DNA from: Pseudomonadota bacterium
GTDB lineage: Bacteria > Desulfobacterota > Desulfobacteria > Desulfobacterales > Desulfobacteraceae
DNA length: 64,000 nt
Assembly (NCBI GenBank): GCA_018821715.1
Contig: JAHJLN010000344.1
Location: 24,165 to 88,164 of the forward strand
Direction of reading: 5' to 3'
Below the pieces are notes generated by a model that was not told the origin of the DNA, did no database searches, and was given only the letters and a program-made list of their open reading frames with translations. Below, in pieces: positions 41,575 to 63,824 of this stretch. Position numbers and translations under genes: made by a program. Within the stretch, counting starts at the first letter, position 1. Each line of letters starts with the position of its first letter.

Positions 41575-41575
41575 G

Positions 41576-42553: not shown

Positions 42554-42579
42554 CCATTAAATCATATGAATGGATTAAC

Positions 42580-44825: not shown

Positions 44826-44826
44826 C

Positions 44827-45429
44827 ATGATGATCAAAGAGCTTTTATTTTCCATTGAAAATTATATGCAGGCAGGCGGGGTTGTCATGATCCCGATCCT
44901 GGTTATATCCCTTTGTATGTGGACCCTGATCATCAACCGGCTTTTGGTTCTGCATCGACTTTATATTAAAAATATTTCCCGGGATACGGCAGGGCAGCTT
45001 GTAAAGGCAAACCAGCAGCCGGAAGAAAACTATCGGGGCATCAACTCGCTTCTGGTCAGGCAGTTCCTTGCTGCCCGCAGCCATGACCCGGTCCTGGACA
45101 GTTTTATCCTTGATGAAACCGTTGTCCGGCTGGTTTCGTCCCTTGACACCCATCTTGGCGCCATCCGGGTGATGGCAGGCGTTGCCCCGCTTCTGGGGCT
45201 TTTGGGTACTGTCATCGGTATGATGGAAACCTTTGATGTGATCACCATTTTCGGCACTGGAAATGCCAAAGCCATGGCAGGCGGAATTTCCGTGGCATTG
45301 ATCACCACCCAGACAGGACTCATGGTCTCCATTCCCGGCCTTTACATGAGCGGGTTTTTAACAAAAAGAGCCAACAACTTGAAATATAAAATTGCTGCAA
45401 CCGGTATGTATTTAAACCGGTTTTTATAA
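44827..45429 (+). CDS. exbB: ExbB/TolQ proton channel
   Basis: APLLGLLGTVIGMMETFDVITIFGTGNAKAMAGGISVALITTQTGLMVSIPGL. Confidence 0.93.
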   Translation: MMIKELLFSIENYMQAGGVVMIPILVISLCMWTLIINRLLVLHRLYIKNISRDTAGQLVKANQQPEENYRGINSLLVRQFLAARSHDPVLDSFILDETVVRLVSSLDTHLGAIRVMAGVAPLLGLLGTVIGMMETFDVITIFGTGNAKAMAGGISVALITTQTGLMVSIPGLYMSGFLTKRANNLKYKIAATGMYLNRFL

Positions 45430-45439
45430 GGAAATTTTT

Positions 45440-45859
45440 ATGCTCAACATTACAAGTGCCAGACGGGCAAATTCAAAAAACCTTGAGCTGAACATCGCTC
45501 CCCTGATTGACATGGTTTTTATATTATTGATTTTTTTCCTGGTCACAACCAGTTTTGTCAAAGAGACGGGCGTGGACATTTCAAGACCCACCGCTGCAAC
45601 AGCGGTCAGCAAAGCCCGGGCCACCATTCTGATCGGCGTGACAAAAGACAACACCATCCACATTGACCAGCGTGCCGTGGATATCAGGGCGGTCCGTGCC
45701 AATGTGGAACGGGCGCTTGCAGAAAACCCGGAAGGCAGTGTGGTAATTGTGGCGGACAAACAAAGCCTGACCGGTCTTGTGATCAATGTAATGGATGCCT
45801 GCAAGCTGGCCGGTGCCCAAAATGTGGCCATTGCTGCAAGTCTGGACCAGGGGGAATAA
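45440..45859 (+). CDS. exbD: ExbD/TolR protein
   Basis: LELNIAPLIDMVFILLIFFLVTTSFVKETGVDISRP. Confidence 0.95.
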   Translation: MLNITSARRANSKNLELNIAPLIDMVFILLIFFLVTTSFVKETGVDISRPTAATAVSKARATILIGVTKDNTIHIDQRAVDIRAVRANVERALAENPEGSVVIVADKQSLTGLVINVMDACKLAGAQNVAIAASLDQGE

Positions 45860-45869
45860 AACCAGGGTG

Positions 45870-46547
45870 ATGACTTTTTTCAGGTTTCTTCAAAACTGGG
45901 GCCTTGCCATGACAGGGTCTATTCTTCTCAATATCAGCCTTTTCGGGCTCATGCCCGGCCTGATCCAGGGCGTGCCTGACAGCCCGGATAAACTTGATAA
46001 GATTCAACAGGTACGGGTTGTCCGGATCAAACCGGCGCACCCCCATGTTCCTGAAAAAGAACTTGAAAAAATAAAACCGGCAGAACCTGAAAAAAAGATT
46101 ATCGGGTCAAAGACCGCCCCCTCCAGACCGCAACCTTTAAACTTGAATCTTAAACTTGATTTTGCACTGAATCCAAAACTTCCGGCAGCTCCCACAGATC
46201 TTGTGATGCCGGCCATCGAGCCGCTTCCAATGGATCTGCCGGCCCTGAAAGATCGATACAGTATGGGAGAGTTGGATTCACCGCTTGTCACGCTTGTGAG
46301 GATACCGCCCCTTTACCCGGTTCGGGCAAGCCGCAGGGGCATTGAAGGATCGGTTGATGTTGAGTTCCTTGTCACAAAAACCGGGCATGTGGAACAGATC
46401 CGTATTGTTCACGCAGAACCTGAAAATATATTTGACAAAAGCGTGATCAACTGTGTTTCAAAATGGAAGTTCAAGCCCGGAACCGTTGGAGGAATCCCTG
46501 TTGCAGCAACGGCCCGGACAACCATACGGTTCAAGCTGGAGAACTGA
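45870..46547 (+). CDS. tonB: TonB-family energy transducer
   Basis: Single TM, Pro/Lys linker, IPPLYPVRASRRGIEGSVDVEFLVTKTGHVEQIRIVHAEPENIFDKSVINCVSKWKFKPG. Confidence 0.94.
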   Translation: MTFFRFLQNWGLAMTGSILLNISLFGLMPGLIQGVPDSPDKLDKIQQVRVVRIKPAHPHVPEKELEKIKPAEPEKKIIGSKTAPSRPQPLNLNLKLDFALNPKLPAAPTDLVMPAIEPLPMDLPALKDRYSMGELDSPLVTLVRIPPLYPVRASRRGIEGSVDVEFLVTKTGHVEQIRIVHAEPENIFDKSVINCVSKWKFKPGTVGGIPVAATARTTIRFKLEN

Positions 46548-47242
46548 TGAAAAATTTTATAATCATGATCATTCTTTCATTCATATTGCCCGTTCCGATG
46601 ATGGCCCAGGAACGTCCTCTTACAGCTGTAGTATGGATCAACCAGGCCATAACCCAGTATGAAAAAGATGATTTTGCTGATGCAGCCCTGTCATTTGAAA
46701 AAGGATATGACCTGTCAGGCATTAAAAACCCGGATCATCTTTATTATGCGGCAGTGTGTCATGTTCAGGCACAAGCCCCTGAAAATGCATTGGCTATTTT
46801 TAACAGACTGATCAAGGCCCATCCGGACCACATAACCCTGTCTTTTAAAGAAACCCTGGTCAATATCCTGTTTTCCCTTGAACGGTATAAGGATGCACTG
46901 CCTTATCTTGAGCAGCTTGCTGAAAAATCCGGTAAAGACCAGCAGAAAAACTGGCAGGAGATTCTGCTGTACCAGTATTTTTCCCTGGGCATGAATGACA
47001 AAGCGCTTGCCTATGCAGGTTTTCTGACAAAAACAGACATGCTTGAATCCAAATGGTGGAAAGCACTTTGTCATATTCACCTGAACAACCAGGACTATGA
47101 AAAAGGGTTAACCGCCCTGATCATTTACGGATATTTAACCCCCATGACCCAGGAAGAGCTCAGGCTGACCGCAGACCTTTATCTTACCCTGGGCATATCG
47201 GCAAAAGCAGAACAGATTTATGAACAGATCAAGGCACAATAA
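46547..47242 (+). CDS. TPR-repeat periplasmic protein of TonB2-type system
   Basis: Signal peptide, TPR-like helices, operon position after tonB. Confidence 0.8.
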   Translation: MKNFIIMIILSFILPVPMMAQERPLTAVVWINQAITQYEKDDFADAALSFEKGYDLSGIKNPDHLYYAAVCHVQAQAPENALAIFNRLIKAHPDHITLSFKETLVNILFSLERYKDALPYLEQLAEKSGKDQQKNWQEILLYQYFSLGMNDKALAYAGFLTKTDMLESKWWKALCHIHLNNQDYEKGLTALIIYGYLTPMTQEELRLTADLYLTLGISAKAEQIYEQIKAQ

Positions 47243-47298
47243 AATGGTCATACAAAAGTATGATATTGCCACGAAAAACCGCAGGGAAGCAGAAAATC

Positions 47299-48336
47299 AT
47301 GAAAAATAAAAACACAGTTCTGATCTTTATCCTTCTTGGCACAGCTCTTCTGGCTGCTGCCTGTCTTGCGGTCATGACCGGGCCTGTGGTGATCAAGCCG
47401 CTGCTTGTGATCAAAATATGGGTGCATCAATTGGGTTGCGGCCTTATAGACAAAGACTGGACACGGATTCCCGAAGTGATTGTTCTGGATGTCAGAACCC
47501 CCAGGGTGGTTCTTGCCATTCTTGTCGGTATGGGGCTTTCAGTTTCAGGGGCGGCCATGCAGGGGCTTTTCAGAAATCCCATGGCAGAGCCCTATGTGCT
47601 TGGCATGTCATCGGGCGCTGCTGTCGGGGCGTGTCTGGCCATTGTTCTGGGAGTCGGAAAGGTCTTAGGCCCTTTTGCCATCCCGGTTCTTGCCTTTACA
47701 GGGGCCACTGCAACCATCTTTGTTGTGTATAACATTGCCAGGACCGGCAACCGGGTGCCCACGGAAACACTGCTGCTTGCAGGTATTGCCGTGGGGCTGT
47801 TTCTTTATGCTGTGGTATCGTTTTTAAAGATTACAGCTTCCATGGAAAGCCTTCAGAATGTGGTGTTGTGGCTCATGGGGTCTTTTGCCATGGCCACCTG
47901 GGTGGACGTCAAAATTATTATCCTGCCGATTTTAGCCGGGATCAGCATACTCTGCCTTCTGGCGCGGGAACTGGATATTTTTCAGTTTGGCGAGGAAACC
48001 GCTGTTCATCTGGGCTTGAATGTGGAAACCATCAAACGGATCCTGCTGATCTCCTGTGCCCTTGTTACCGGGGCTGCTGTTTCGGTTTCAGGTATTATCG
48101 GATTTGCCGGTCTGATTGTTCCCCATATGGTAAGGATGCTTATCGGCAGCCGTCACAGAATACTGTTACCGGCCAGTGCCCTGTGTGGGGCCATTTTTCT
48201 GGTCTGCTGCGATACCTTGTCCAGAATTATTGCACAGCCGTCTGAAGTGCCCATCGGCATTATTACGGCAGCCATCGGGGCACCCTATTTTGTTTATCTG
48301 CTTAAACGGAGAAAAAAAGCTGTCAAATGGTGGTAA
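47299..48336 (+). CDS. FecCD/BtuC-family ABC permease
   Basis: RTPRVVLAILVGMGLSVSGAAMQGLFRNPMAEPYVLGMSSGAAVGA; SGIIGFAGLIVPHMVRMLIGSRHR. Confidence 0.96.
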   Translation: MKNKNTVLIFILLGTALLAAACLAVMTGPVVIKPLLVIKIWVHQLGCGLIDKDWTRIPEVIVLDVRTPRVVLAILVGMGLSVSGAAMQGLFRNPMAEPYVLGMSSGAAVGACLAIVLGVGKVLGPFAIPVLAFTGATATIFVVYNIARTGNRVPTETLLLAGIAVGLFLYAVVSFLKITASMESLQNVVLWLMGSFAMATWVDVKIIILPILAGISILCLLARELDIFQFGEETAVHLGLNVETIKRILLISCALVTGAAVSVSGIIGFAGLIVPHMVRMLIGSRHRILLPASALCGAIFLVCCDTLSRIIAQPSEVPIGIITAAIGAPYFVYLLKRRKKAVKWW

Positions 48337-48356
48337 CCTTTGGTGGTGGTAAAAAT

Positions 48357-49139
48357 ATGATCAAATTATTCAATATCAGCGCTTCATACCAGGATTTTTC
48401 TGTTCTTGACAATGTCAGTCTTGAAATCAGCGCACAACGGTTTTACGGGATTATCGGGCCGAACGGTGCAGGTAAAACAACACTTCTTAAAATCATGACC
48501 CGTGTCAAACGTCCTGAATCCGGCGAAGTGCGGCTTTTGGATAAGGATATCAGGGGACTTACAAACAAAACAATTGCAAAAATCATGGCTGTGGTTCCCC
48601 AGAGTTCTTTTATCCCGCCATTGTTTACCGTAGAGGAAGTGGTGGCAATGGGACGGTATCCTTTCCAGAATTTTGGCTTTTCAGATACAAAAGAGGACAA
48701 AACTTTTGTGGAGGCAGCCATTGAAAAAACCGGCATCCATGCGTTTCGTTCCAGGATGATCAGTGAACTGAGCGGGGGACAGCGCCAGGAAGTGATCATT
48801 GCCAGAGCCCTTGCCCAGACCCCTCAGATCCTCATGCTGGATGAGCCAACGGCAAATCTGGATATCAAACACCAGATGAAAATTCTTGGGCTGACCGCCT
48901 CTTTGGTCAAAAAAGACGGTCTGGCCGGGGTCATGGTTATTCATGACCTGAACCTGGCAGCCCGGTTCTGCGATCAGCTGATCCTGCTTCATGACAAAAA
49001 AATCCTGGCCAATGGGTCGCCTGAAACAGTCCTGACCCCGGCCCATTTAAAAATTGCCTACGGAGTGGATACAGCTGTTATGGAAAATCCGTTGACAAGG
49101 TCCCTGGAAGTAACGGTACTGGACAGTGAAGCGGCATGA
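48357..49139 (+). CDS. BtuD/FecE-family ABC ATPase
   Basis: GPNGAGKTTLLK, LSGGQRQEVIIARALAQTPQILMLDEPTANLD. Confidence 0.96.
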   Translation: MIKLFNISASYQDFSVLDNVSLEISAQRFYGIIGPNGAGKTTLLKIMTRVKRPESGEVRLLDKDIRGLTNKTIAKIMAVVPQSSFIPPLFTVEEVVAMGRYPFQNFGFSDTKEDKTFVEAAIEKTGIHAFRSRMISELSGGQRQEVIIARALAQTPQILMLDEPTANLDIKHQMKILGLTASLVKKDGLAGVMVIHDLNLAARFCDQLILLHDKKILANGSPETVLTPAHLKIAYGVDTAVMENPLTRSLEVTVLDSEAA

Positions 49140-49213
49140 CAGGGTAACCCATGAATCAATATTATCATTACAGCCTTTTTAAGAGGCATTATCACCATAG
49201 GAAGATCTTATAA

Positions 49214-51187
49214 ATGAAACATCATCATATTTTTTCATTTTCAGCTGTTGTGGGACAGGAAAAGCTCAAGCTTGCCCTGATACTCAATGCAGTCAATCCG
49301 CAAATTGGCGGCGTTTTGATCCGGGGGGAAAAGGGCACGGCAAAGTCCACCACAGTCCGGGCCCTTTCATCCCTTCTGCCCGGCACACAGGTTGTGACCC
49401 TGCCGTTGAATGCAACAGAAGACCGGGTGGCAGGCGGCATTGATTTCAGCCTGGCCGTAAAAAGCGGGAAACGGGCATTCCAGCCGGGGCTTCTGGCCAA
49501 AGCCCACCAGGGAATTCTGTACGTGGATGAAGTCAATCTTCTGGATGATCACATCGTGGATATCATCCTGGATGCGTCTGCTTCAAAGGAAAACCGGGTT
49601 GAACGGGAAGGCATCTCTTTTTGTCATGATGCTGATTTTATCCTTGTGGGGACCATGAATCCTGAAGAAGGAGAACTTCGGCCCCAGCTCCTGGACCGGT
49701 TCGGGCTTTGTGTGGAAGTGACATCGGAAAAAGACCTTGAAACAAGAATCCTTCTGATGCTTAGAAAGGAAAGTTTTGATGCTGATCCCGAAGGGTTCTG
49801 CAACCAGTATCAAGCTGATAATACAGCATTATCCGAACAGATCGCAACGGCCCGTACGCTTTTAAAAGAGGTTCAATTTCCTGACAGCTTAAGGGCATTG
49901 GTGGCCGGGCTGTGTGCCCAGAACAACGTGGCCGGGCATAGGGCCGACCTAGTGATTGAACAGACAGCCAAGGCTTTGGCGGCTTTTCATGGCAGAGTCG
50001 AAGCCGGGATGGATGAGGTCAAGCAGGTGGCATGGTTTGCTCTGGCCCACCGGAAACGGGACCAGTCTCCCGCACCGCCGCCACCACCTGATCATTCCCC
50101 GGATAACAATAATGAATCCAACAACAATGAGCCTGAGGAAAACAAAGAAAAGCCTGAGTCGCCTGAGCCCAATGAGCAGGATCAGGACAAGCAAGATCAG
50201 GGCAGGCATGATCATGGCGAACAGGAACAGGATGAAAACAATACGGATGAGGATCAGGACGGGCAGGACGAAGAACAGCCCGCACCAGAACCTGAACCCC
50301 GTGGGGAAAATCAGGAACAGGACAAAAAAGATGTGCTGGAAAAAATATTTGAGGTGGGAGAAACCTTTAAGGTGAAAAAATTTGTCTCTCCCAAGGATCA
50401 GATATTTCGAAGGGGATCAGGCAAACGTTCCCGGTCCAGGACGGCTGCAAAACAGGGCAGGTATGTGAGAAGCACCACCCCTAAAGGCAGTAATGATATT
50501 GCCTTTGACGCTACCTTGAGGGCGGCAGCCCCTTTTCAGATTCAGAGAAAAGACAGCGGCAGCGCCATGGCAGTTATCCTTAAAAATCAGGATATCCGGG
50601 AAAAAATCAGGGAAAAGCGCATTGGCAATTTTCTGCTCTTTATTGTGGATGCCAGTGCTTCCATGGGTGCCAGGGGACGGATGAAGGCCTCAAAAGGGGC
50701 CATCATGTCGCTTCTTTTAGATGCTTATCAGAAACGGGACAAGGTCGCCATGGTGACCTTCAGGAAAGAACAGGCTTTTGTCAACCTGCCGCCCACCTCG
50801 TCTGTGGAGCTTGCCGGCAAATTATTGGAAGAAATGCCTGTGGGCGGGAAAACGCCGTTGTCATCAGGGCTTGTCAAGGGATTTGAACTGTTGCGCAACC
50901 ATCTTCTCCGGGAGCCTGAAGCAAGGCCCATTGCCATTATCATTACCGACGGCAGGGGCAATGTGGCTTTGGGGAATAAGAAACCGTTTCAGGAGGTTCT
51001 TGACCTGGCAGAGAAGATGGCCCTTGAACCAAGAATACAGTTTATCGTGGTGGATTCTGAAAGCCAGGGGGCGGTTTCATTCGGCCTGGCGCAAAAACTT
51101 GCCGCCAACCTGAACGCGGAATATTGTAAAATACAAGATCTTAAAGTCAACCAATTGATCGATATAGCAAGAGGAGATTTGTTTTGA
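49214..51187 (+). CDS. ChlD/BchD/CobT-like fused AAA+ and VWA chelatase subunit
   Basis: [14 protein letters not shown]; acidic/Pro/Gln linker; [29 protein letters not shown]. Confidence 0.92.
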
Positions 51188-52254
51188 AAAAAAAGATTGT
51201 CTATCCCTTTATGGCCATCCAGGGCCAGGAAGAGATGAAACTGGCACTGATACTCAATATTATCAATCCGACCCTTTCAGGCGTGCTGATCCGGGGGGAA
51301 AAGGGAACGGCAAAGTCTACGGCTGTCCGTGCCCTGGCCCGGATTTTGCCGGAAATTGAAAAGGTGAAGGATTGTCCGTTCCAGCATGATCCCAAAGGCA
51401 AACATGCTGTCTGCATGGACTGCGTCCGCACCGAGTGCCGGGATATCATCCTGGGAAACATCCGGAAGCCTGGCCAGGTCCTTGAAACCGTGATGGAAGG
51501 CATAAGGGTGATTGAACTGCCTGTAGGGGCCACTGAAGACCGGGTGGTGGGAACAATGGATATGGAGCAGGCCCTGAAAAAAGGAGAAAAACAGGTGGAA
51601 CCCGGCATCCTTGCTGCGGCTCACCGGGGCATTCTTTACGTGGATGAGGTGAATCTTTTAGACGACCATGTGGTGGATGTGCTGCTGGATTCTGCAGCCA
51701 TGGGGGTGAATACCATTGAACGCGAAGGCATCTCTTTTTCCCATCCTGCACGGTTCACCCTGGTGGGCACCATGAATCCTGAAGAAGGCGAGCTGCGGCC
51801 CCAGCTTCTGGACCGGTTCGGGCTTTGTGTCAATGTGACCGGAATTTTGGATCCTGACGACAGGGTGGCTATTATGGAACGGCGCATAAGCTTTGATGAA
51901 GACCCGGAAGCCTTTGTCAAACAATGGGAAGACGATTCCCAGAAACTTGTGGAAAAAATCAAACTGGCAAAAACGCTTTACCCGGATGTCATCTGCGAAC
52001 GCCCCAGGCTTTATGAAATTGCATCATATTGCCTGGATGTGGGCGTGGACGGACACAGGGGTGATATCATTATCCTAAAGACCGCCAAAACCCTGGCCGC
52101 TTTTGACGGCAGGACACAGGTTGAATCAAAGGATATTGAAAAGGCAGCGTCCCTGGCATTGCCCCACAGGGTCAGGCGTCAGCCGCTGCAAGATATTGTA
52201 ACCGATGTGTCTGCCATGCGAAACCGGACAAAAGCCACAGGATTTTCATCATGA
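51184..52254 (+). CDS. ChlI/BchI-like AAA+ chelatase subunit
   Basis: [27 protein letters not shown]...CPFQHDP...CMDC...[43 protein letters not shown]. Confidence 0.93.
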
Positions 52255-53087
52255 TTCAGGTACTCAATCTCAATAAAACCTATAAATCCACCCAGGCGCT
52301 CAAGGATGTCAACCTCCAGGTGGACAAGGGAGAACTTTTTGCATTCCTGGGCCCCAACGGTGCCGGCAAGACCACCACCATACGGATATTGACAGGCTTG
52401 ACCAAACTGGACTCCGGAACCGTGCGGCTTAACGGATTTGATGTGAACACCCCGGGAATTGACAGCCGCAGGCAGTGCGGGCTTGTGCCCCAGTCCATCA
52501 ATCTTGACCGGGAATTGTCCGTTGTTGAGAATTTAAACATTCACGGCAGGCTTTTCAGGATGAACAAAGAACAAAGAATGTCCAGGATTGAAGAGCTGCT
52601 TGATTATGTGGAGATGGGCGACCGCAAGGCAACCCTGGTCAAGAACCTGTCGGGCGGCATGAAGCGGCGGCTCATGATTGCAAGGGCACTGCTGCATTCT
52701 CCGGCCATCCTGTTTCTGGACGAACCCACAGTGGGGCTTGACGCAGGCATGCGCCGCAAGATCTGGGCGCTCATTAAAAAAATCCAGCAGAACGGCACCA
52801 CCATTTTTCTGACCACCCATTATATTGAAGAAGCTGAGTTCCTTGCAGGCCGAGTGGCCTTTATTGACAAAGGGGCCATTGTGGTGGTGGATACGCCGGA
52901 AAGTCTGATGAAACAACAGGGAACCTGGGCTCTGGACCGCCTGAAGGAAGATGACATGGAAACACTTTATTTTAACGACCGGAAAGAGGCCAATGACTAT
53001 ATTGCCGCCCAAAAAGACAGCTTTACCCTGCGGCGGGTCAATCTTGAGGATTCTTTTCTGGCATTAACAGGGAAAAAAGTACAATGA
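52251..53087 (+). CDS. ABC-2 exporter ATPase (CcmA/NodI-like)
   Basis: GPNGAGKTTTIRILTGLTKLDSGTVRLNGFDV; LSGGMKRRLMIARALLHSPAILFLDEPTVGLD. Confidence 0.95.
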   Translation: MIQVLNLNKTYKSTQALKDVNLQVDKGELFAFLGPNGAGKTTTIRILTGLTKLDSGTVRLNGFDVNTPGIDSRRQCGLVPQSINLDRELSVVENLNIHGRLFRMNKEQRMSRIEELLDYVEMGDRKATLVKNLSGGMKRRLMIARALLHSPAILFLDEPTVGLDAGMRRKIWALIKKIQQNGTTIFLTTHYIEEAEFLAGRVAFIDKGAIVVVDTPESLMKQQGTWALDRLKEDDMETLYFNDRKEANDYIAAQKDSFTLRRVNLEDSFLALTGKKVQ

Positions 53088-53821
53088 TACACGGTGCATC
53101 AGCAGTTTATTACAGGGAAATATTGATATTACGGCGGCGGTTGACCCGGCTTGTTCCCTCCTGGTCCGTATCCCCGCTGCTCTATTTGATTGCTTTCGGG
53201 TATGCCATGGGAAAGCATGTGACTGTGCAGGGTCACTCTTATATGGAATTTCTCATCCCGGGCCTGATTGCCATGAGCAGCATGACCCAGGCCTTTGCCA
53301 TTTCCAGCGAAATCAATATCGCCCGGTTTTACTGGCATATTTTTGAAGAGATCCAGGCTGCACCGGTCAGCGATCTGTCCTATGTGATCGGCGAAGTCCT
53401 GGCCGGGATGACAAGGGCCATCCTGGCTATCCTGGTCATTCTGGTTCTGGGTCTTTTATTCGGGGTTGTGATTTCCTGTAATGTCTGGTTCTGGCTGGCT
53501 GTCATGCTCAACAGCTTTGTGTTTGCCTCCCTTGCCGTGGGACTTGCCATGCTGGTCAAATCCCATGCCGACCAGACCCTTGTGACCAGTTTTGTGATCA
53601 CGCCCATGGCATTTTTAGGTGGCACGTTTTTCCCTGTGGAAAATTTTCCGGCCTGGGCCCAGAAAGCCATTTATTTTCTGCCCCTGACCCATGCGTCCAC
53701 ATCCATCAGGACCGCATCCTTCGGCAATATGCCGTCTGTGTCTTCTCTTGTGATACTGGCTGTGACCGGGGGCGTGTTTTTTTATATTTCCGTTTTATGT
53801 GTCAAAAAAGCAAAGGATTGA
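53084..53821 (+). CDS. ABC-2 type transporter permease
   Basis: SVSPLLYLIAFGYAMG...YMEFLIPGLIAMSSMTQAF...VITPMAFLGGTFFPVENFP. Confidence 0.94.
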   Translation: MIHGASAVYYREILILRRRLTRLVPSWSVSPLLYLIAFGYAMGKHVTVQGHSYMEFLIPGLIAMSSMTQAFAISSEINIARFYWHIFEEIQAAPVSDLSYVIGEVLAGMTRAILAILVILVLGLLFGVVISCNVWFWLAVMLNSFVFASLAVGLAMLVKSHADQTLVTSFVITPMAFLGGTFFPVENFPAWAQKAIYFLPLTHASTSIRTASFGNMPSVSSLVILAVTGGVFFYISVLCVKKAKD

Positions 53822-53830: not shown

Positions 53831-55729
53831 ATGAAAAATAAGCCCTGTTTTTTAAACAAGACCGTTTTCCTTATTATCCTGTTTTTCGTCTTGTCCCAGG
53901 CTGTATTATGGACAAACCGGGCAGCAGCGCAGCAAAGAGATACAGAACCTGTAACCCTGGACACGGTTGTGGTAACCGCCTCAAGAATTGAGGATTACAA
54001 AAAAAACAATCCCCACCTGGTGCAGGAAATGACACGGGAGCAGATACAAAAAAGCAGTTTTACCGGGGTTGACCAGGTATTGAATGCCATGCCCGGCGTG
54101 GAAGTTAAAAAAAGCGGGGCAGGAACCGGATCACGCATATCCATCCAGGGCTCAGGGGGGAACGGCAAAATCCTGGTTCTGATCAACGGCAGGCCTGCCA
54201 GCGCCACCCAGTACGGCAGTGTTGACCTGGATTCCATTCCCCTGGATATGGTTGAAAAGGTTGATGTGTTCAAGCCGCCGGTGCCGGTATGGCTTGGGCC
54301 GGGCAGCACCAGCGGAGCCATTAATATTGTGCTGGCCAATGAAACCCGGAACAAAAACAAACCCTCAAAAAACAGTCGTGTCAATCTTAAGGGTGGTTCA
54401 TTCGGAACCGGCAGTACGTCTGCATCACACATGATGGCTTCAGATTCCCAGTCACTGAAATTGACGGCATCGTTAAGCCACAGGGACGGCAAACGGACCA
54501 ACACGGACCGGGACAGCGGCAGCGTTGGGTTTCAATGGGATCTGCCATCCAAAGGCAACACCCAATATGATCTTTCAGGCCGGTATTACCAGTCTGAGCA
54601 TGGTTCTTCAGGCCCTGTTTATAATCCCACCCCCAATGCCCGCCAGGAATATAAGAAAGGCTCCCTGGATTTTCGTGTAAAAGGCTTCTGGGGAGAAACC
54701 GGAGACTATGACATAAAACTGTTCATGGACGATCTGACTCTTGAAGACCGATCCCAGACAGGGGGTGTTGCCACCCTTGACGAACTGGTTGCCGGATTTA
54801 AGAATGAAGTCACATGGACAGATGAAAATAACGGGTTTTCCCTTCAATTGATGACCAGCGCATCCCATGATCGGATTGATCATACCTTAAGCGGCGATCA
54901 CAAGAGAGAAAATGCCGGTATCGGACTGCAGTCCGACATCAAACAAAAGTCCATGACGATAAGCCTTGGGGCACGGTGCGACTATACATCCGACTTTCAT
55001 TTCCAGCCTGCTGTCAATGCTGGTCTGAACATTCATTTAGATTCCGGAACAAGGGTCAAACTTAACAGCGGGTACAGCGTCAATATCCCGACATTCGGCC
55101 AGCTTTATCAGCCCAGCCACGGTTCCATTGACCAGGTCAGGGGCAACCCTGATTTAAAAGAAGAAGCCGTTCTGACAGTGTCTGCCGGTATCGTTCATGA
55201 GTTTTCTAAAGGCAGGTCCGTGGAGGTCACCCTTTTCAGGACAGATACAGACAACATGATCGGATATGAAGAGGGGCTGGATCTTATTAAACGGCCGGTC
55301 AACATTGATGAGGCATCTCGCCAGGGCATTGAAACAACCCTGTGCCTGAAGCTGTCTGATACTATTTTCCTGGACATGAACCATGTCTGGCAGACCAGCT
55401 GCAACAAGGAAAACAACAAGGATCTGACCTATGCCCCGGACCATAAATTCAAGGCAACAGTCAAATGGACATCCCCCTTTAAAACCCGTGTGGAAACCAG
55501 TTTTTCAGCCCTGGGCAGCCAGTTTTCAGACCTTGCAAATTCAGAAGAAAAAAAACTGTCCAATTATCAGACCGTGGATCTGAAATTTATTCACCCGATA
55601 AAGATTCAATCCTGCAAAACCCAGGCATTTGTCTATTTTGAAAACCTTTTTGATAAAGGGTATGATGTGCATTACGGATACCCGGATGACGGGTTTCGTT
55701 TCACCATTGGGCTGACAATGGAATTTTAA
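53831..55729 (+). CDS. TonB-dependent receptor
   Basis: Signal peptide; DTVVVTASRIEDYKKNNPHLVQEMTREQIQKS; plug and barrel motifs; C-term FTIGLTMEF. Confidence 0.93.
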   Translation: MKNKPCFLNKTVFLIILFFVLSQAVLWTNRAAAQQRDTEPVTLDTVVVTASRIEDYKKNNPHLVQEMTREQIQKSSFTGVDQVLNAMPGVEVKKSGAGTGSRISIQGSGGNGKILVLINGRPASATQYGSVDLDSIPLDMVEKVDVFKPPVPVWLGPGSTSGAINIVLANETRNKNKPSKNSRVNLKGGSFGTGSTSASHMMASDSQSLKLTASLSHRDGKRTNTDRDSGSVGFQWDLPSKGNTQYDLSGRYYQSEHGSSGPVYNPTPNARQEYKKGSLDFRVKGFWGETGDYDIKLFMDDLTLEDRSQTGGVATLDELVAGFKNEVTWTDENNGFSLQLMTSASHDRIDHTLSGDHKRENAGIGLQSDIKQKSMTISLGARCDYTSDFHFQPAVNAGLNIHLDSGTRVKLNSGYSVNIPTFGQLYQPSHGSIDQVRGNPDLKEEAVLTVSAGIVHEFSKGRSVEVTLFRTDTDNMIGYEEGLDLIKRPVNIDEASRQGIETTLCLKLSDTIFLDMNHVWQTSCNKENNKDLTYAPDHKFKATVKWTSPFKTRVETSFSALGSQFSDLANSEEKKLSNYQTVDLKFIHPIKIQSCKTQAFVYFENLFDKGYDVHYGYPDDGFRFTIGLTMEF

Positions 55730-55811
55730 CAAAAGTTGATTTTAAATACCTTTGTTATGAGTATACAGATTATTCTTGACTTAATGGTGCTTTTTTTCTA
55801 ATAAATAACGT

Positions 55812-55985
55812 TATTCAGGTGCCTTGAGAGAGGCTGAAAAGGGAACCCTGTTAAAATCAGGGACGGGCCCGCCGCTGTGATCGGAGACGAACGCTGCATG
55901 AATGTCACTGGCAGTTTTATGCCGGGAAGACGCAGCCATTAGGATGACCCGAGAGTCAGAAGACCTGCCTGGAGAAATGTACGTG
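55812..55985 (+). promoter_or_regulatory. Cobalamin riboswitch
   Basis: AAAAGGGAACCCTG...AGGGACGGGCCCGCCGCTGTGATCGGAGACGAACGC...TGTCACTGG...GCCGGGAAGACGC...GACCCGAGAGTCAGAAGACCTGCC. Confidence 0.96.
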
Positions 55986-56041
55986 TTGTCAATCCTCGTG
56001 GACAAGGGAAAGGCAAATCCAATCTGCGGAAAATCAGGGAA

Positions 56042-56079
56042 CCCCAGATCATTTAAAATGGTCCGGGGATTTTTTTTAT
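56042..56079 (+). terminator. Intrinsic terminator, probable riboswitch expression platform
   Basis: CCCCaGATCATTTaAAATGGTCcGGGG followed by T8. Confidence 0.85.
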
Positions 56080-56120
56080 CAATTCCCCGGGCAAAAACAA
56101 AAATTTGCTAAAGGGGAAAA

Positions 56121-58148
56121 ATGAAAAAAATCTTATTGACAGGTTTGACGGCTGTCATGCTGCTGTCTGCTGTTGACACATGTTTTGCATCTGAAAAAAA
56201 TCTATCCGAAACAAAGCTGGATGAGATTGTGGTTACGGCCACCAGAAGTGAAGAACAAATCAAAACCATACCCGCCAGGGTCGAAGTCATAAAGTCCCGG
56301 GATATTGAGCTGACCACGGGAGAAACCCTGACAGAACAATTAAAGAAAAATGCATCCATTGGTGTTATTGAATATGGCACTGATCTGTCCGGTATCGGTA
56401 TCAGGGGATTCAGGCCTGAATTTTCAGGCATTACCAAGCATTCCCTTATCCTTATTGACGGCCGGCCTGCCGGTGCCACAAACCTGTCTTCTGTGTTGAG
56501 CGATAATATTGAACGTATTGAGATTTTGAAAGGGCCTGCGTCATCGCTTTATGGTGGTGAAGCCATGGGCGGTGTTGTCAATATCATCACAAAAAAGAAT
56601 ACCGGGGAATTGACAGGCCTTGTTGAAGCGGGATTTGGATCCTTTGATACCAATTTCCAGAAAGCTGCTGTTGGCGGAGGTCTCACAGACAGGTTCGATT
56701 TTGATATCTCTGTCAGGCAACGTGACCAGCAAAATGATTTTCAGATGGGCAATGGTGATTCACGTTCAAGCACCAGTTTTACAACCCGCAACGGTGATCT
56801 CCGACTGGGCATGGATTTGGGAGAAACCTGGAGAATCGATATCGGCGCTGACGGATATCAGGGCCTCGATATTGAGCTGCCGGGTGATATCTATAACGGG
56901 GACATCCAGTCCGGGAAAAAAGACGTGGACCGATGGGCCGTGGATACCACCCTGGGCGGCATGATCAATGACCATAACAATGTCTCGTTGACTGCGTACA
57001 GAACAAAAGAACTGAACAAAAATTTTCAGGATTATACCGGTTCCGGACCTTACACTGCTGTGCCCACCTATCATGCTCTTGATTCTGAAACCAACTGGAT
57101 GGGGTTCCAGTTAAAAGATATCATATCCTTTGATACACACAGGATTATTGTCGGCGTTGATTTTCAGGACATCGACAAGGAAAGCCGACGGTATAATGCA
57201 GGCGGGTCAAGCCTGGCCCCGTATTACCCTGATGAAAGCCGCGAAAATATGGCAGCCTATGTTGAAACGGTCTTAAGTTTATTTGATAAACATATGACCG
57301 CCACATTGGGCTGCCGGTATGATACCTTTGATGTATCCACTGAACCCACGCCTTATTTAACCACGTTTACCCCCGGGACAGAATCTTTTGATACCTTCAG
57401 CCCCAGAGCCGGTCTGAATTATCAGTTTGACCGGGGATTCAGACTGCATACCACCATAGGAAAGGCCTTTGTTCCACCCACGGCTGCCCAGCTAGCTGCA
57501 AACATTACTTCCTACGGTACCACCACCACGGGTAATCCCGGCCTGGACCCTGAATCCTCCATCACCTGGGATATGGGTGTCGGGTATGAGACATCCAACA
57601 AAGGATTTAATATGGATGTTACGTATTTTCATACTGATGTGAAGGATAAAATTATCACGGAAAAGATCAGTGCCACCACCAGAACATACAGGAATAGTCT
57701 TGGTGCTGAAATACACGGCCTGGAATATATGGTTTCATTTGATATCGGTGTCCCCCTGAAATGGAACCGTTCCCTTTCTTTCTTTGTCAATGGAACCCGG
57801 ATCTTTAATGCAAAAGAAGAACAGACAGACCATACCATGGAAGAGATTACAAATGTTGCAGAGCACACGGTCAATTACGGTGTCAATTATGATGACGGCA
57901 TGATCGAGGCAAGATTGAATGCCAGATCCCAGGGCGGTATGAAGGACAATGACTGGCATACAACCGGATACCCTGAGATAGAATATCCCGGCTTTACAGT
58001 AGTGGATCTGTCTGGTGGCATAAGTTTTAAAGAACATCATAAAATTATGATCAAAATCGACAATCTGCTGGATCATGACTATTACGAGAAAAAAGGATAC
58101 CCAAAACCCGGGCAAAGCTTTTATGTAAGTTACAGGTACACATTTTAA
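56121..58148 (+). CDS. TonB-dependent receptor (BtuB/HmuR-like) under riboswitch control
   Basis: LDEIVVTATRSEEQIKTIPARVEVIKSRDIEL...; plug LIDGRPAGATNLSSVLSDNIERIEILKGPASSLYGGEAMGGVVNIITKK; C-term VSYRYTF. Confidence 0.95.
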   Translation: MKKILLTGLTAVMLLSAVDTCFASEKNLSETKLDEIVVTATRSEEQIKTIPARVEVIKSRDIELTTGETLTEQLKKNASIGVIEYGTDLSGIGIRGFRPEFSGITKHSLILIDGRPAGATNLSSVLSDNIERIEILKGPASSLYGGEAMGGVVNIITKKNTGELTGLVEAGFGSFDTNFQKAAVGGGLTDRFDFDISVRQRDQQNDFQMGNGDSRSSTSFTTRNGDLRLGMDLGETWRIDIGADGYQGLDIELPGDIYNGDIQSGKKDVDRWAVDTTLGGMINDHNNVSLTAYRTKELNKNFQDYTGSGPYTAVPTYHALDSETNWMGFQLKDIISFDTHRIIVGVDFQDIDKESRRYNAGGSSLAPYYPDESRENMAAYVETVLSLFDKHMTATLGCRYDTFDVSTEPTPYLTTFTPGTESFDTFSPRAGLNYQFDRGFRLHTTIGKAFVPPTAAQLAANITSYGTTTTGNPGLDPESSITWDMGVGYETSNKGFNMDVTYFHTDVKDKIITEKISATTRTYRNSLGAEIHGLEYMVSFDIGVPLKWNRSLSFFVNGTRIFNAKEEQTDHTMEEITNVAEHTVNYGVNYDDGMIEARLNARSQGGMKDNDWHTTGYPEIEYPGFTVVDLSGGISFKEHHKIMIKIDNLLDHDYYEKKGYPKPGQSFYVSYRYTF

Positions 58149-58150
58149 AC

Positions 58151-58885
58151 ATGGAACTTAAATCACTTATTGTGGGGCTTTTTCTGTCAATTGGTGCGTT
58201 TGCCGTAAAAAGCGGCGGCGGCCTTGGCTATGTGCTGGTGCAGGCGCCCGGCAGAGCCAGACAGGCCGTGGCAACTCTGGCGTTCATGGTAATGTATGCC
58301 ATGCTTTTTGGCGCTGTCGCTTTGCTGCTGCTCAGGGTCAACCTGATGGCCCATATTGAGCTGTTGCAGGATTTTTTCAAGAGCGGGATGACCCTGCATT
58401 TTCTTGTGGCAATCCTCCTGCTGATATGGGGTGTCTTTCTTATGAAAAAACCATGGGGGCAAACACAGTCTGGGAGAGGCTGGATTCCCCTGGTATTGCC
58501 TTGCCCGGTCTGTTTTACGGTTGTTCTGTTATCCTGCAGTTTTCTGAATGCAGTTTATCCGGGCAGAATCATGGTGTTTTGCGCCCTTTATGCAGGCTTT
58601 ATCATTGTCAGCCTGACTGTGGCATTTGCCATAACCCGGTTTGTTAAAACCATAGATGCGGCTCACCGTTTTTCAGGGATGCTGATGGTCTATATTGCCG
58701 TTTATTTCATACTTTCCATCATTGTTATTCCGCAGTTTGCAGATCTAAACAAAATTTACACAATCTCCACGCCTGAACCGTTTTTTGTACTTTCCCGGGA
58801 AAAAATCATTTTAATCCTGATGACCATGGCCGGTCTGGCAGCAGGATTTTTTAACCCTTTTAATAAAAATAAACATGGAGAATAA
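58151..58885 (+). CDS. DUF2162-like multi-TM putative transporter
   Basis: GAFAVKSGGGLGYVLVQAPGRARQAVATLAFMVMYA...VLPCPVCFTVVLLSCSFLNAVYPGR. Confidence 0.75.
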   Translation: MELKSLIVGLFLSIGAFAVKSGGGLGYVLVQAPGRARQAVATLAFMVMYAMLFGAVALLLLRVNLMAHIELLQDFFKSGMTLHFLVAILLLIWGVFLMKKPWGQTQSGRGWIPLVLPCPVCFTVVLLSCSFLNAVYPGRIMVFCALYAGFIIVSLTVAFAITRFVKTIDAAHRFSGMLMVYIAVYFILSIIVIPQFADLNKIYTISTPEPFFVLSREKIILILMTMAGLAAGFFNPFNKNKHGE

Positions 58886-58887
58886 TC

Positions 58888-59493
58888 ATGCAGATCATTG
58901 CTGTTTTAAAAACATTTATATATCTTATTGCCTCTTCACTGTTCCTGCCGGTGCTGCTGATTCTGTCCTGCCTGTTTGTCTGGATGGTGGTCTATTCCGG
59001 TGCCTTTTTCCGGCAATGGATTCAAAGAATCAGGATTAGAAAACAGGCCGGAAACCTGGCGCAAAAAATTGCTTCAGGTCAATACCGGGACAGCCTTCCC
59101 TTTCCGGTCGTCAAAATTATCAGGACACTGGAATCCCATAAAGGGTCAGCAGATCATGTCCTGGTTATAAACCTGCTGCGTGATGCTGAACATCATATGT
59201 GGAAAGCTCTTGATCCTCTAAAAATAATGATCCGGATCGGGCCTGGACTGGGATTGATCGGCACCCTCATTCCCATGGGAACCGGGCTTGCATCACTTGG
59301 CCAGGGAAATCTTGGGCAGTTGAGCCAGGATCTTGTGGTGGCCTTTACCACAACAGTGGTGGGCATGGCCCTGGGCCTTTTATCCTATTTTTATTTTACT
59401 GTCCAGCGCCGCTGGGTGGAGCAGGATATTAAAAACATGGAACTTGCGGCTGAACTTTTAACAGGAGAACACACCGGCCATGAGATATCTTAA
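58888..59493 (+). CDS. MotA/TolQ/ExbB proton channel family protein
   Basis: IRIGPGLGLIGTLIPMGTGLASLGQGNLGQLSQDLVVAFTTTVVGMALGLLSYFYFTVQRRWVEQDI. Confidence 0.9.
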   Translation: MQIIAVLKTFIYLIASSLFLPVLLILSCLFVWMVVYSGAFFRQWIQRIRIRKQAGNLAQKIASGQYRDSLPFPVVKIIRTLESHKGSADHVLVINLLRDAEHHMWKALDPLKIMIRIGPGLGLIGTLIPMGTGLASLGQGNLGQLSQDLVVAFTTTVVGMALGLLSYFYFTVQRRWVEQDIKNMELAAELLTGEHTGHEIS

Positions 59494-59815
59494 AACCAGT
59501 CAGGACCGGGGGACCGGATTATCTGACAACGATCCCCTGTCAGGGGTGGCCAACCTGTTTGACTTGGGGCTTGTTTTTATTGTAGGGCTTTTGATTGCGC
59601 TTTTCGGCGCCTATCATCTGGAAGACCTTTTGTCCCAGGATTCTGATATGACTATTGTTAAAAAATCATCTGACGGTCAGATGGAGATCATTTCAAAAAA
59701 AGGCAAAAAAATTGATGCCGTGAAAGTGACAAAAGAAAAAGCTCAAGGCAAGGGAGAACGTCTTGGAACAGCCTATAAACTTGAAAACGGCTCAATGATT
59801 TATATTCCGGATTAA
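59480..59815 (+). CDS. DUF2149 single-TM protein (possible ExbD/MotB analogue)
   Basis: NDPLSGVANLFDLGLVFIVGLLIALFGAYHLEDLL; overlaps MotA-like gene. Confidence 0.85.
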   Translation: MRYLKTSQDRGTGLSDNDPLSGVANLFDLGLVFIVGLLIALFGAYHLEDLLSQDSDMTIVKKSSDGQMEIISKKGKKIDAVKVTKEKAQGKGERLGTAYKLENGSMIYIPD

Positions 59816-59909
59816 CAGCCATGGGCTGTCCTGGTATTTGATCCGGGCATGCCCACAGCAAAAAAGCTGAAATGCTGTTGAGGATCACATAAAAAAAAGG
59901 ACATAGCAC

Positions 59910-62900
59910 ATGAAACGCCTGATATTTTTGATTCTGTTTGTTTTATGGCCGGGGCGCCTGTTTGCGGCAGACATGGCTTTTATGGTATTGGACCAGAATT
60001 CATATATTGCCAATACGGCAGTTCAAACCCTTGGGCTTCCCCTTGATATAGCGGTCATCACCAGTAATGACGTGATAAAAAACCCTGACGCAGTCAAGGA
60101 TGAGGCCAGCCGGGCAAAGATTATTTTAGCAGATGTTATGGGCCGGGAGCTTGCTTCTTTTCTGACCGGACACTATGAGTTTGAATCAAAAACCATATAT
60201 GCACTTCGCAGCTCCCGGGATGACGACACTTTAAAGAAAAAGGGTTTTGTTTTTGACCCCCTGGTGGCGGAGTATTATCAGCATCTGTCTGTGAAAAACA
60301 TTCAAAACATGCTGCGCCTGATTGCACACCGCCACTTTGATAAAACCATCACCTATGCCCCGATAGTTAAACAACCTGGCCCGGGTCTTTACCACCCGGA
60401 TGCCAAAGGCATTTTCATTAATGCCAAAGACTATTTAAACTGGCAGAAAACCCGGCCCGGGTTTAATCCTGATTACCCCAGAATCGGCCTGCTCTTTTTT
60501 TCATCTTTTATGACCCAGGGCCAGAATGCTCCTGTGGATTATATGATCCGGCAACTGGAAAAAGAGGGGTTTAATGTCATGCCCTGTTTTGGCCGGGAGC
60601 AGGACATTTTAAAATCCATTCTTCTGGATGAGAAAGGTTCAGCACGGGTGGATATGGTTATTGCCTGGTCATTTAAATTCTATAATGCCTTGACCCCTGA
60701 ACTGGGAGAGCTTTTAAAAAAGCTTGATGTCCCAATCATCAGTGCTGTCAATCTTTATAAAGACACCATTGACCAGTGGCGTAAAAACCCTGTGGGCATT
60801 GACACCCTTGAAGTTGCCTGGTCCCTGGCCGTGCCTGAACTGTCCGGTCTTATCGAACCTATCGTGCTGTCAGGAAAAGAAAAAATACTTGACCCTGTAA
60901 CCCAAAAATCTGTTTTTATAAGCCAGCCTGTAAAAGAAAACATAGACCGGCTCATGCCAAGGCTTAAAAAATGGATCATACTCAAAAAAAAGCCCAACAA
61001 TGAGAAAAAGATTGCCATCCTGTTCTACAACCATCATCAGGGAAAACAGAATATCGGCGCCTCCTATCTCAATGTTTTTAAAAGTCTTGAAAACATTATG
61101 CATGCCCTTAAAACAGACGGCTACACCATGGGTTTGCCCCTTTGCGAAAAAGAAATAAAAGACCTGATTCTGACCTCGGCAAGAAATATCGGGTCATGGG
61201 CGCCGGGTGAACTTGATAAATTATTGTCTTCCGGCAAGGTGGTGAGACTGCCGGTTGAGACATACAAACACTGGTTTAAAGACCTGCCCCAGGATTTTCA
61301 GGACAAGGTAGTTAAACAGTGGGGGGGACCTGAAGAGCCCGGGATAATGATTCACAACAAGGATTTCATTATTCCGGCTGTTCAGGTTGAAAATATGATA
61401 CTGCTTCCCGAACCTACCCGTGGATGGGGGGATGATCCCATGAAACTGGATCATGACACCACCCTTTATCCCCACCACCAGTATCTGGCAGTTTACCTTT
61501 GGCTGTCAAAAATCTTTAAGGCAGATGCCATGATTCATCTGGGTACCCATTCCACCTATGAATGGACTCCCGGCAAGCAGGCCGGGCTTTCGCCCTCCTG
61601 CCCGCCGGAAATCCTTATCACAGATATCCCCAATATTTATCCTTATATCATGGATGATGTGGGTGAAGGCATCCAGGCCAAACGCCGGGGAAGAGGAGTG
61701 ATGATTTCCCATCTGACCCCCATTCTGAAAAAAGCAGACCTTCATGAAGAATACAGCCGTATGGCAGAATTGGCAAACGAGTATGACCGGGCCAGAGCCA
61801 GAGGAAGCATCACTGCAGAAGAAAAATTTAAGGAACTGATGATCCTTGCCCAAAAGACCGGTATTTTAAAAGATATCCAGGATTCAGATGAAGTCCAACC
61901 AGATAGAGTCCAACCAGATGAATTCCGGGATGAAACCGTCCAAAAACTTGGTCATTACCTTGAAGAAATTAAAGAGAACCTGATTCCTTTTGGCATGCAC
62001 ACCTTTGGCCGTTCACCTGATCCTGACCAAGCCAGTGAAATGGCAGAGGCTATTGTCAAATTCAATCCTGACCAGACAAAAAAAGATATTGCTGCCAGGC
62101 TTACAATGTCCGGGAGCAATGAAATCAACAGCCTTGTCAACGGACTGAACGGCAGGCATATCCCGTCCGGACCGGGAAATGATCCTGTCAGAAATCCTGA
62201 TGCGCTTCCCACAGGCTCAAATTTTTACGGGTTCAACCCGGGCAAAATACCTAGCCCGGCAGCCTGGGAACTTGGAAAAAAAGCAGCCCAACAGATCATT
62301 GACAACCATTTAATGAAAAAAAAGTCCTATCCCCGGAAAGTTGCCGTGGTCCTGTGGGCAGTTGAAACCCTTCGCAACGAAGGGGTCAATGAATCCACCA
62401 TCCTGTATCTGATCGGCATAAAACCCAAGTGGTCAAAAGCCGGAAAGGTGCTTGGCATTGACCTGATTCCCGCAACCCGACTTAACCGCCCGAGAATTGA
62501 TGTCATGATCAATGCTTCAGGCCTGTACCGGGATCTTTTCCCTGAAAAATTACAATTTCTGGACAAAGCGATCCGCCTGGCAGCTCGACAGACTGATGTT
62601 GAAAATTTGATCGCCAGGCATAACCAGCAAATAAAAACACAGCTCATCAAACAGGGCATGGACCCGCAAAAAGCTGCGGAGCTGTCACAATTTCGCGTTT
62701 TTTCAGAAACTCCAGGGTCATACGGAAACGGGATCTCTGAAATGGCCGCAGGTTCTTCCAAATGGGAGAATCCCGGCCAGGTGGTTGACGTGTTTGAAAA
62801 CCGGATGGGTTTTGCCTTTGGCGCAGACCAATGGGGCATCCCGGCAAAAGATCTGTTAAAAGAACAGCTTGTCAATGTTGATGTCACTGTTCATTCCAGG

Positions 62901-63824
62901 TCCTCCAATGTCTATGGCCTTTTGGACAATGATGACATGTTTCAATACCTTGGCGGTCTTTCCATGGCAGTACGCCATGAGTCCCGGAAAACCCCGGAAA
63001 CCCTGATCACCCAGCAACAGAAAAAAGGACAGGTCAATATAGAAGACATGGCAAAAACCCTGGGCCGTGAAATGCGTTCCCGGTATCTGAATTCCAAATG
63101 GATTGACGGCATGAAAAAAGAAGATTATGCCGGTGCCAAAGCAATGGCTGATTTTGTTGAACACCTGTGGGGCTGGAACATGACCACGCCTGAAAAGGTG
63201 GATGCAGCCAAGTGGCAGCAAACCTATGAAGTCTATGTCCAGGATAAATACGGTCTTGAACTGTACAAATTCTTTAAAAAAGCTTCTCCCTGGGCATTTC
63301 AGTCCATAACCGCCAGAATGCTTGAAACCAGCCGGAAAGGCTATTGGAAGCCTGACCGGAAAGTAATGGAAACTCTGGCAGCCCAATACGCCACAAGCGT
63401 AATTGAAAAAGGCGTTGCCTGCTGTGACCACATCTGCAACAATCCCATGCTTAACCAGATGGTAGTCTCCATCATTTCCATACCAGACGTCTTAAGCTCG
63501 GAACTGGTCGAAAAGTTCAAACTGGCAATTGAAAAAATGGCTGGCAAATCCATGGAAAAACAGGTCAAGGACCGGAAGAACCTGTTGAAAAAACTGGCCG
63601 AGCCTGTTTTAAAATCACCGGCACAGAAAACAAAACCCGATCAAAAGGATTTCTCTGAAAACAGTAAAGATACAGGCATTGTTGAAGGTTATAAAATGGA
63701 AAAAATCGACAAGCAAGATGAATCCACCCATATGACCTCATCCGGCATTGAATGGATGGCAGTCCTGGTCGTCCTGGCAGTTATCGGTCTTGCGGCCTAT
63801 GGCGCCGGACGAAAAGAAAAATAA
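59910..63824 (+). CDS. CobN-like chelatase with signal peptide and C-terminal TM anchor (predicted periplasmic)
   Basis: MKRLIFLILFVLWPGRLFAADM signal; AMIHLGTHSTYEWTPGKQAGLSPSCPPEILITDIPNIYPYIMDDVGEGIQAKRRGRGVMISHL; C-term SGIEWMAVLVVLAVIGLAAYGAGRKEK. Confidence 0.93.
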   Translation: MKRLIFLILFVLWPGRLFAADMAFMVLDQNSYIANTAVQTLGLPLDIAVITSNDVIKNPDAVKDEASRAKIILADVMGRELASFLTGHYEFESKTIYALRSSRDDDTLKKKGFVFDPLVAEYYQHLSVKNIQNMLRLIAHRHFDKTITYAPIVKQPGPGLYHPDAKGIFINAKDYLNWQKTRPGFNPDYPRIGLLFFSSFMTQGQNAPVDYMIRQLEKEGFNVMPCFGREQDILKSILLDEKGSARVDMVIAWSFKFYNALTPELGELLKKLDVPIISAVNLYKDTIDQWRKNPVGIDTLEVAWSLAVPELSGLIEPIVLSGKEKILDPVTQKSVFISQPVKENIDRLMPRLKKWIILKKKPNNEKKIAILFYNHHQGKQNIGASYLNVFKSLENIMHALKTDGYTMGLPLCEKEIKDLILTSARNIGSWAPGELDKLLSSGKVVRLPVETYKHWFKDLPQDFQDKVVKQWGGPEEPGIMIHNKDFIIPAVQVENMILLPEPTRGWGDDPMKLDHDTTLYPHHQYLAVYLWLSKIFKADAMIHLGTHSTYEWTPGKQAGLSPSCPPEILITDIPNIYPYIMDDVGEGIQAKRRGRGVMISHLTPILKKADLHEEYSRMAELANEYDRARARGSITAEEKFKELMILAQKTGILKDIQDSDEVQPDRVQPDEFRDETVQKLGHYLEEIKENLIPFGMHTFGRSPDPDQASEMAEAIVKFNPDQTKKDIAARLTMSGSNEINSLVNGLNGRHIPSGPGNDPVRNPDALPTGSNFYGFNPGKIPSPAAWELGKKAAQQIIDNHLMKKKSYPRKVAVVLWAVETLRNEGVNESTILYLIGIKPKWSKAGKVLGIDLIPATRLNRPRIDVMINASGLYRDLFPEKLQFLDKAIRLAARQTDVENLIARHNQQIKTQLIKQGMDPQKAAELSQFRVFSETPGSYGNGISEMAAGSSKWENPGQVVDVFENRMGFAFGADQWGIPAKDLLKEQLVNVDVTVHSRSSNVYGLLDNDDMFQYLGGLSMAVRHESRKTPETLITQQQKKGQVNIEDMAKTLGREMRSRYLNSKWIDGMKKEDYAGAKAMADFVEHLWGWNMTTPEKVDAAKWQQTYEVYVQDKYGLELYKFFKKASPWAFQSITARMLETSRKGYWKPDRKVMETLAAQYATSVIEKGVACCDHICNNPMLNQMVVSIISIPDVLSSELVEKFKLAIEKMAGKSMEKQVKDRKNLLKKLAEPVLKSPAQKTKPDQKDFSENSKDTGIVEGYKMEKIDKQDESTHMTSSGIEWMAVLVVLAVIGLAAYGAGRKEK

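Follow-up and report, generated by a model that had tools for sequence, protein, structure and literature searches.

What might an exported CobN-type protein do in an operon led by a cobalamin riboswitch? The question is raised by the last genes of a 64,000-nucleotide stretch of a Desulfobacteraceae genome (the window, analyzed here at its full length), in which such a riboswitch is followed, all on the plus strand, by genes for a TonB receptor, a DUF2162 protein, a MotA/ExbB-type protein, a DUF2149 protein and an exported CobN, called CobN2 below. Our main finding is that this module, whose composition is already known from the heme locus hmuYRSTUV of gut Bacteroidota, is a distinct and widespread, probably corrinoid-handling cousin of that locus. 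The function that we infer for it throughout rests on sequence: at roughly even odds (a probability of about 0.5), it would be a B12-repressed module, powered by the proton motive force (pmf), for periplasmic corrinoid handling or salvage and inner-membrane uptake. The evidence leans towards corrinoid uptake and handling rather than a chelatase proper; metal insertion or removal by CobN2, as proposed in a preliminary description of the locus, was not supported.

The riboswitch-led operon and its recurrence

The five-gene, riboswitch-led arrangement is confirmed. The preliminary description had listed five adjacent or overlapping genes behind a cobalamin riboswitch; the genes lie exactly at the positions given, Pfam bore out their families (Table 1), and the riboswitch scored 119.6 bits against RF00174, whose gathering score is 31.5 bits, and 200 bits with a covariance model made from the riboswitches of the same genome. 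Spacings across the five genes are 2 nucleotides, 2 nucleotides, a 14-nucleotide overlap and 94 nucleotides, and the contig ends 176 nucleotides past CobN2, so that the 3' end of the operon lies outside the sequence in view. A GC-rich hairpin with eight T residues 3' of its stem stands 5' of the receptor start codon. It was not among the terminators listed by a generic consensus scan, but its sequence and fold support a terminator; given its position between riboswitch and first start codon, it is probably the transcriptional OFF platform, likely to end transcription when B12 is plentiful.

Co-occurrence of the five families elsewhere, a point on which the preliminary description had staked itself, was found in a neighbourhood survey of named genomes, and because it recurs in 80 named loci the arrangement is not due to chance. 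Most of these loci belong to Desulfobacterota, and others to Synergistota, Planctomycetota, Lentisphaerota, Mariprofundaceae and one Sphingobacterium. Culturable organisms are among them, with Desulfospira joergensenii DSM 10085 at L096 and a Desulfoluna strain at L148. Home-made profiles detected DUF2162 in 72 of the 80, the MotA-like protein in 79, CobN in 73 and a TonB receptor in 61, and the order DUF2162-MotA-DUF2149 is near-constant; DUF2149 was present in 48 of 395 genomes sampled from the phylum. Riboswitches were counted with the covariance model from the genome's own riboswitches: among the 49 loci with over 6 kb of upstream sequence, 31 have a cobalamin riboswitch on the same strand no more than 6.5 kb upstream of DUF2149, compared with 1 of 57 over the same span downstream. 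Several of the 18 riboswitch-negative loci have a longer operon with a riboswitch farther upstream. Tandem cobalamin riboswitches, close together, lie upstream of or near the module in L080, L084, L086/L111, L136 and L138. The window's own genome carries a full second riboswitch and module (locus L047, contig C44 of G000) with 89% nucleotide identity along its length; this copy could be a paralogue or, with 5.85% contamination in the assembly, could come from a contaminating relative, and it was therefore excluded as independent evidence.

Table 1. Features of the riboswitch-led operon, in window coordinates
Feature	Position	Strand	Support
Cobalamin riboswitch aptamer (RF00174)	55800..55986	+	119.6 bits, E 2.1e-29
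Terminator-like hairpin and T8, between aptamer and first gene	56036..56080	+	-14.7 kcal/mol, z -2.2
TonB-dependent outer-membrane receptor with signal peptide	56121..58148	+	Pfam Plug 5.7e-20, barrel (TonB_dep_Rec) 3.4e-42
DUF2162 polytopic inner-membrane protein, predicted 7 transmembrane (TM) segments	58151..58885	+	PF09930 8.2e-37
MotA/TolQ/ExbB-type proton-channel subunit	58888..59493	+	PF01618 2.2e-11
DUF2149, HmuV-type: one N-terminal TM and small beta-rich periplasmic domain	59480..59815	+	PF09919 2.5e-33
Exported, C-terminally anchored CobN-type class I chelatase-fold protein (BtuS/HmuS-like), predicted	59910..63824	+	PF02514 (CobN-Mg_chel) 1071 bits

CobN2, the heme locus and the probable ligand

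The resemblance to hmu pointed out in the preliminary description is borne out by the published gene set, in which hmuYRSTUV encodes HmuY, a TonB-dependent receptor, a CobN, a hypothetical protein, a MotA/TolQ/ExbB protein and DUF2149 (PMC10434189). Both systems combine a TonB receptor, an exported and anchored CobN-fold protein, a MotA/ExbB-type protein (HmuU), a DUF2149 protein (HmuV) and, in the place of HmuT, a polytopic protein. The Bacteroidota loci examined usually begin with the TonB receptor, followed by CobN (HmuS) and then by a membrane protein of some 235 amino acids, MotA and DUF2149, and none of 12 such hmu-type loci has a cobalamin riboswitch; the module, in contrast, has the riboswitch, carries DUF2162 with a CPVC motif where hmu has HmuT, and usually places CobN after DUF2149 or after a BtuF-CbiZ fusion. 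Operons of B. fragilis come closer: they are hmu-like, lie behind a cobalamin riboswitch and lack HmuY, and a role in cobalamin use was already suggested for them in 2023 (PMC10100974); the BtuS proteins are also known from Bacteroides fragilis (Rocha 2019, PMC6460266). Those operons were reported for a few Bacteroidetes, whereas the present group spans Desulfobacterota, Synergistota and Planctomycetota and has DUF2162 and BtuF-CbiZ. The BtuS family was reportedly first set up by Rodionov in 2003.

CobN2 is predicted to be extracytoplasmic and membrane-anchored, as first proposed, its hydropathy pointing to an N-terminal signal (2.16; a hydrophobic stretch ending LFA/AD) and a C-terminal TM (2.44; residues about 1283-1299, then a basic tail). 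Of 58 relatives, 50 pass the threshold for the first value and 56 for the second. Both the signal and the C-terminal TM are missing from the second CobN of the window (35478-39380).

The best matches of CobN2 in the Protein Data Bank (PDB) are HmuS (9d26, 500 bits), ChlH (445) and CobN (430). HmuS is described as a membrane-bound heme de-chelatase, yielding PPIX and Fe(II) from heme, whose family is defined by Met79, His254 and a methionine-rich insertion, and its authors state that most members of the superfamily cannot be reliably annotated (PMC12583661). We compared 58 module-type CobNs, which include the Sphingobacterium protein and one ChlID-linked CobN1-type paralogue (L048), with 11 Bacteroidota proteins. 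The heme-site motif His254-Gly-Arg (HGR) is found in 10 of the 11 and in none of the 58, and Gln299 in 8 and in none; module-type proteins have x-K-F and mostly W there (F255-K-F and W304 in CobN2). His1209 (10 of 11) is Asp in 57 of 58, D1009 in CobN2. Conversely, the catalytic His538, H547 in CobN2, is invariant in the 58 and in the Bacteroidota set, and the equivalent of Glu542 in the 58. The methionine-rich insertion is absent, CobN2 matching HmuS over its own residues 128-711 and 696-1191 and leaving HmuS 694-888 unmatched; for the Met79 column, which holds the axial ligand of HmuS, the head domain of CobN2 is too diverged for confident alignment. In a tree whose long branches meet, the module clade stands apart from Bacteroidota HmuS and from ChlID-linked CobN1. 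Given its heme-site residues, the missing insertion and the tree, CobN2 was not assigned to HmuS.

Many relatives carry, between DUF2149 and CobN, a gene of about 2 kb for a periplasmic-binding protein (PF01497) fused to CbiZ, an adenosylcobinamide amidohydrolase domain (PF01955, E down to 1.7e-55). This BtuF-CbiZ fusion occurs in 52 of the 80 loci, and the N-terminus is hydrophobic in each of the 48 copies of full length (among the secreted examples are L102:10282-12285, L106:4399-6432 and L155:5993-8095). That of the window's genome is not at the locus but on contig C131, with its own riboswitch. The substrates of CbiZ are cobinamide and, in bacteria, also pseudocobalamin (PMC3541065). A 256-amino-acid Pterin_bind-domain protein lies between BtuF-CbiZ and CobN in two loci (L102:12361-13131 and L118:12337-13104).

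Because of the riboswitch, the BtuF-CbiZ association and the missing HGR motif, the ligand is probably a corrinoid and not heme; the preliminary description had pointed to corrinoid or cobalt. Could the locus nevertheless be an ordinary hmu-type system for acquiring heme iron, with a coincidental B12 riboswitch? The gene set equals hmu, no solved structure is closer to CobN2 than that of HmuS, and the receptor tops out on heme receptor models; yet riboswitch and CbiZ are conserved across the group, and both the HGR motif (in all 58) and the methionine-rich insertion are missing, which makes this reading very unlikely.

AAA+ partners, the MotA-DUF2149 pair and the inner membrane

CobNST and ChlHID share with the module the CobN fold and the active-site His/Glu region, but the module CobN is exported and anchored and has a stator pair instead. 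Moreover, 13 of 31 module genomes (G351, G254, G202, G280, G054, G357, G029, G328, G242, G341, G046, G228 and G252) encode neither a ChlI/ChlD-type protein, absence being called at a best match below 46 bits when clear ChlI/ChlD exceed 230 bits, nor a CobN outside the module families. In those 13 genomes the module CobN is independent of AAA+ (ATPases associated with diverse cellular activities) partners; these ATP-driven partners are thus dispensable, in agreement with the original proposal. CobN2 as a biosynthetic CobN was rejected on its export signals and on the ChlI/D-free genomes.

The window does hold ChlD and ChlI (49214-52254), which belong to a cytosolic CobN1-type cluster. This plus-strand run (35478-53821) has no riboswitch and is led by the second, cytosolic-type CobN, followed by a TonB receptor, a periplasmic binding protein, DUF3450, two ExbB-type proteins, ExbD, TonB, a tetratricopeptide repeat protein, FecCD, an ATP-binding cassette (ABC) ATPase, ChlD, ChlI and an ABC-2 pair, and then by a receptor (53831-55729). 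Related stretches lie on contigs C403 (83-84% nucleotide identity) and C1.

The preliminary description had seen an ExbBD-like motor in the MotA-DUF2149 pair. A stator-type pair separate from TonB-ExbBD stands, with such separation seen in 18 loci, but DUF2149 as a homologue of ExbD does not: the hhalign probability was 4%, the likeness being confined to one TM and its Asp. The pore-type threonines T126 and T156 of the MotA-like protein are invariant in 73 of 73 aligned sequences; a phmmer search of the PDB with this protein returned only noise. DUF2149 has an invariant motif, N25-L26-x-D28, whose Asp recalls the TM Asp of ExbD, and its beta-rich domain is unlike that of ExbD; its low-confidence model (predicted local distance difference test, pLDDT, 70) had no matches in Foldseek.

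HmuU and HmuV have been drawn as energizing HmuR (PMC12583661), and the MotA-DUF2149 pair could likewise be an extra ExbBD energizing the TonB receptor, with CobN2 a passive periplasmic corrinoid buffer. Such a role is unlikely, because 18 loci hold separate same-strand ExbD/TonB-type genes close to the module, usually a full ExbB-ExbD-TonB set. The window itself has such genes (43389-46544), homology of DUF2149 to ExbD was not detected, and in the Lentisphaerota loci L163 and L170 the pair stays with CobN where no TonB receptor was detected. Among the control genomes, DUF2149 also occurs in Methanosarcina acetivorans, an archaeon that has no outer membrane; this version may display the core function without TonB import.

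Compared with the BtuB-TonB-ExbBD and BtuFCD route, the module shares B12-riboswitch control, a TonB receptor and a BtuF-type protein (fused to CbiZ), but instead of an ABC permease and ATPase it has DUF2162-MotA-DUF2149-CobN. DUF2162 has ten residues invariant in an alignment of 49 sequences, including K20, H83, W93 and P117-C118-P119-C121 (49 of 49); the invariant Cys pair lies where TM4 begins, which the positive-inside rule places near the cytoplasmic side. Its structure model is confident and multi-helix (pLDDT 89), and a known transporter fold was rejected, no PDB structure matching at E<=0.001. The membrane protein at the HmuT position in Bacteroidota has no Pfam match to DUF2162 and lacks CPVC; hhalign aligned the two in the C-terminal part only (probability 91%, E 1e-6, 9% identity), so that DUF2162 as a counterpart of HmuT by homology is weak, the two being remote relatives at best.

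In three genomes that are 98-100% complete (G054, G242 and G341) and hold riboswitch, module and BtuF-CbiZ, no FecCD/BtuC permease was detected by a profile that was positive in 13 of 14 control genomes; ECF (energy-coupling factor) and BtuM importers were not searched for. One of them, G242, encodes in a single run riboswitch, receptor, DUF2162, MotA, DUF2149, BtuF-CbiZ, CobN, ExbB, ExbD and TonB. Small as their number is, these genomes favour passage of corrinoids across the inner membrane via the module, which seems to replace the ATP-driven B12 importer in some relatives.

A candidate mechanism and its meaning

The sequence elements suggest that at low adenosylcobalamin transcription would pass the riboswitch terminator, and the TonB receptor would then bring corrinoids into the periplasm, where the anchored CobN-type protein may hold them in its chelatase cleft. 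In most relatives a secreted BtuF-CbiZ, able to trim the nucleotide loop, would act beside CobN, with which its gene is associated. From gene content, MotA-DUF2149 would be a stator-like pmf motor acting on CobN and/or DUF2162 in place of a ChlI/D ring, and not a TonB energizer. The most likely output would be energized passage of the corrinoid, or its product, through DUF2162, alongside or replacing BtuCD; CobN would be the energized corrinoid-binding component, with cobalt removal or insertion as a secondary possibility.

Four observations weigh against this mechanism. BtuC is absent in only 3 of 30 genomes, and most module genomes, including the window's own, encode FecCD/BtuC-type transporters. 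By model score the receptor is closer to heme receptors than to BtuB (TonB-hemin TIGR01785 251 bits, B12 TIGR01779 181 bits in NCBIfam, both below cut-off). The nearest studied relative, HmuS, is a reported de-chelatase, favouring metal chemistry, and CbiK genes near CobN (27 of 80 loci; often 0-190 nucleotides downstream and mostly without signal peptide) may point to cobalt supply. CbiK-type class II chelatase genes start 2-11 nucleotides past CobN in L061 (13740-14543), L110 (17903-18754) and L118 (17031-17882).

The last two observations also speak for an extracytoplasmic cobalt (de)chelatase, in which CobN2, driven by MotA-DUF2149, would strip or swap the cobalt of CbiZ-trimmed corrinoids and DUF2162, through its CPVC and His residues, would pass Co(II) to cytosolic CbiK for new B12. 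The HmuS precedent (PMC12583661), the conserved His538 and Glu542 equivalents, the invariant Cys pair of DUF2162 and the report that delta-proteobacteria with CbiK lack known cobalt transporters (PMC545781) all agree with it. However, cobalt corrins withstand demetallation unless the ligand is lost (PMC6771967), destroying corrinoids at B12 shortage would be uneconomic, the position of HmuS His1209 is Asp in nearly all module-type proteins, and CbiK matches are none or weak in some module genomes. Cobalt salvage is thus possible, cobalt removal by CobN2 being chemically demanding, and we regard this (de)chelatase as a tentative alternative. Its strictly mechanical version is more doubtful still: a stator-driven class I chelatase in which pmf, via MotA-DUF2149, would act on periplasmic CobN so that the cobalt of CbiZ-trimmed corrinoids is stripped off or exchanged, DUF2162 moving the metal inward. 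If true, we would know of no earlier case in which an organism takes cobalt out of a corrin, or in which a class I chelatase is run by a motor that does not use ATP.

As far as the literature searched shows, what is new is the broad Desulfobacterota-type variant, its link to BtuF-CbiZ, the residues that set it apart from HmuS, its independence from ChlI/D, its occurrence beside a separate ExbBD-TonB and the genomes without BtuC. Corrinoid handling and uptake by the module would give a large group of exported CobN proteins a testable role. The module suggests that class I chelatase-fold proteins can do without AAA+ rings driven by ATP, and that corrinoids may cross the inner membrane of some bacteria without BtuCD. 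It also places the CbiZ amidohydrolase, by prediction, outside the cytoplasm, which bears on the sharing and remodelling of B12 among anaerobes.

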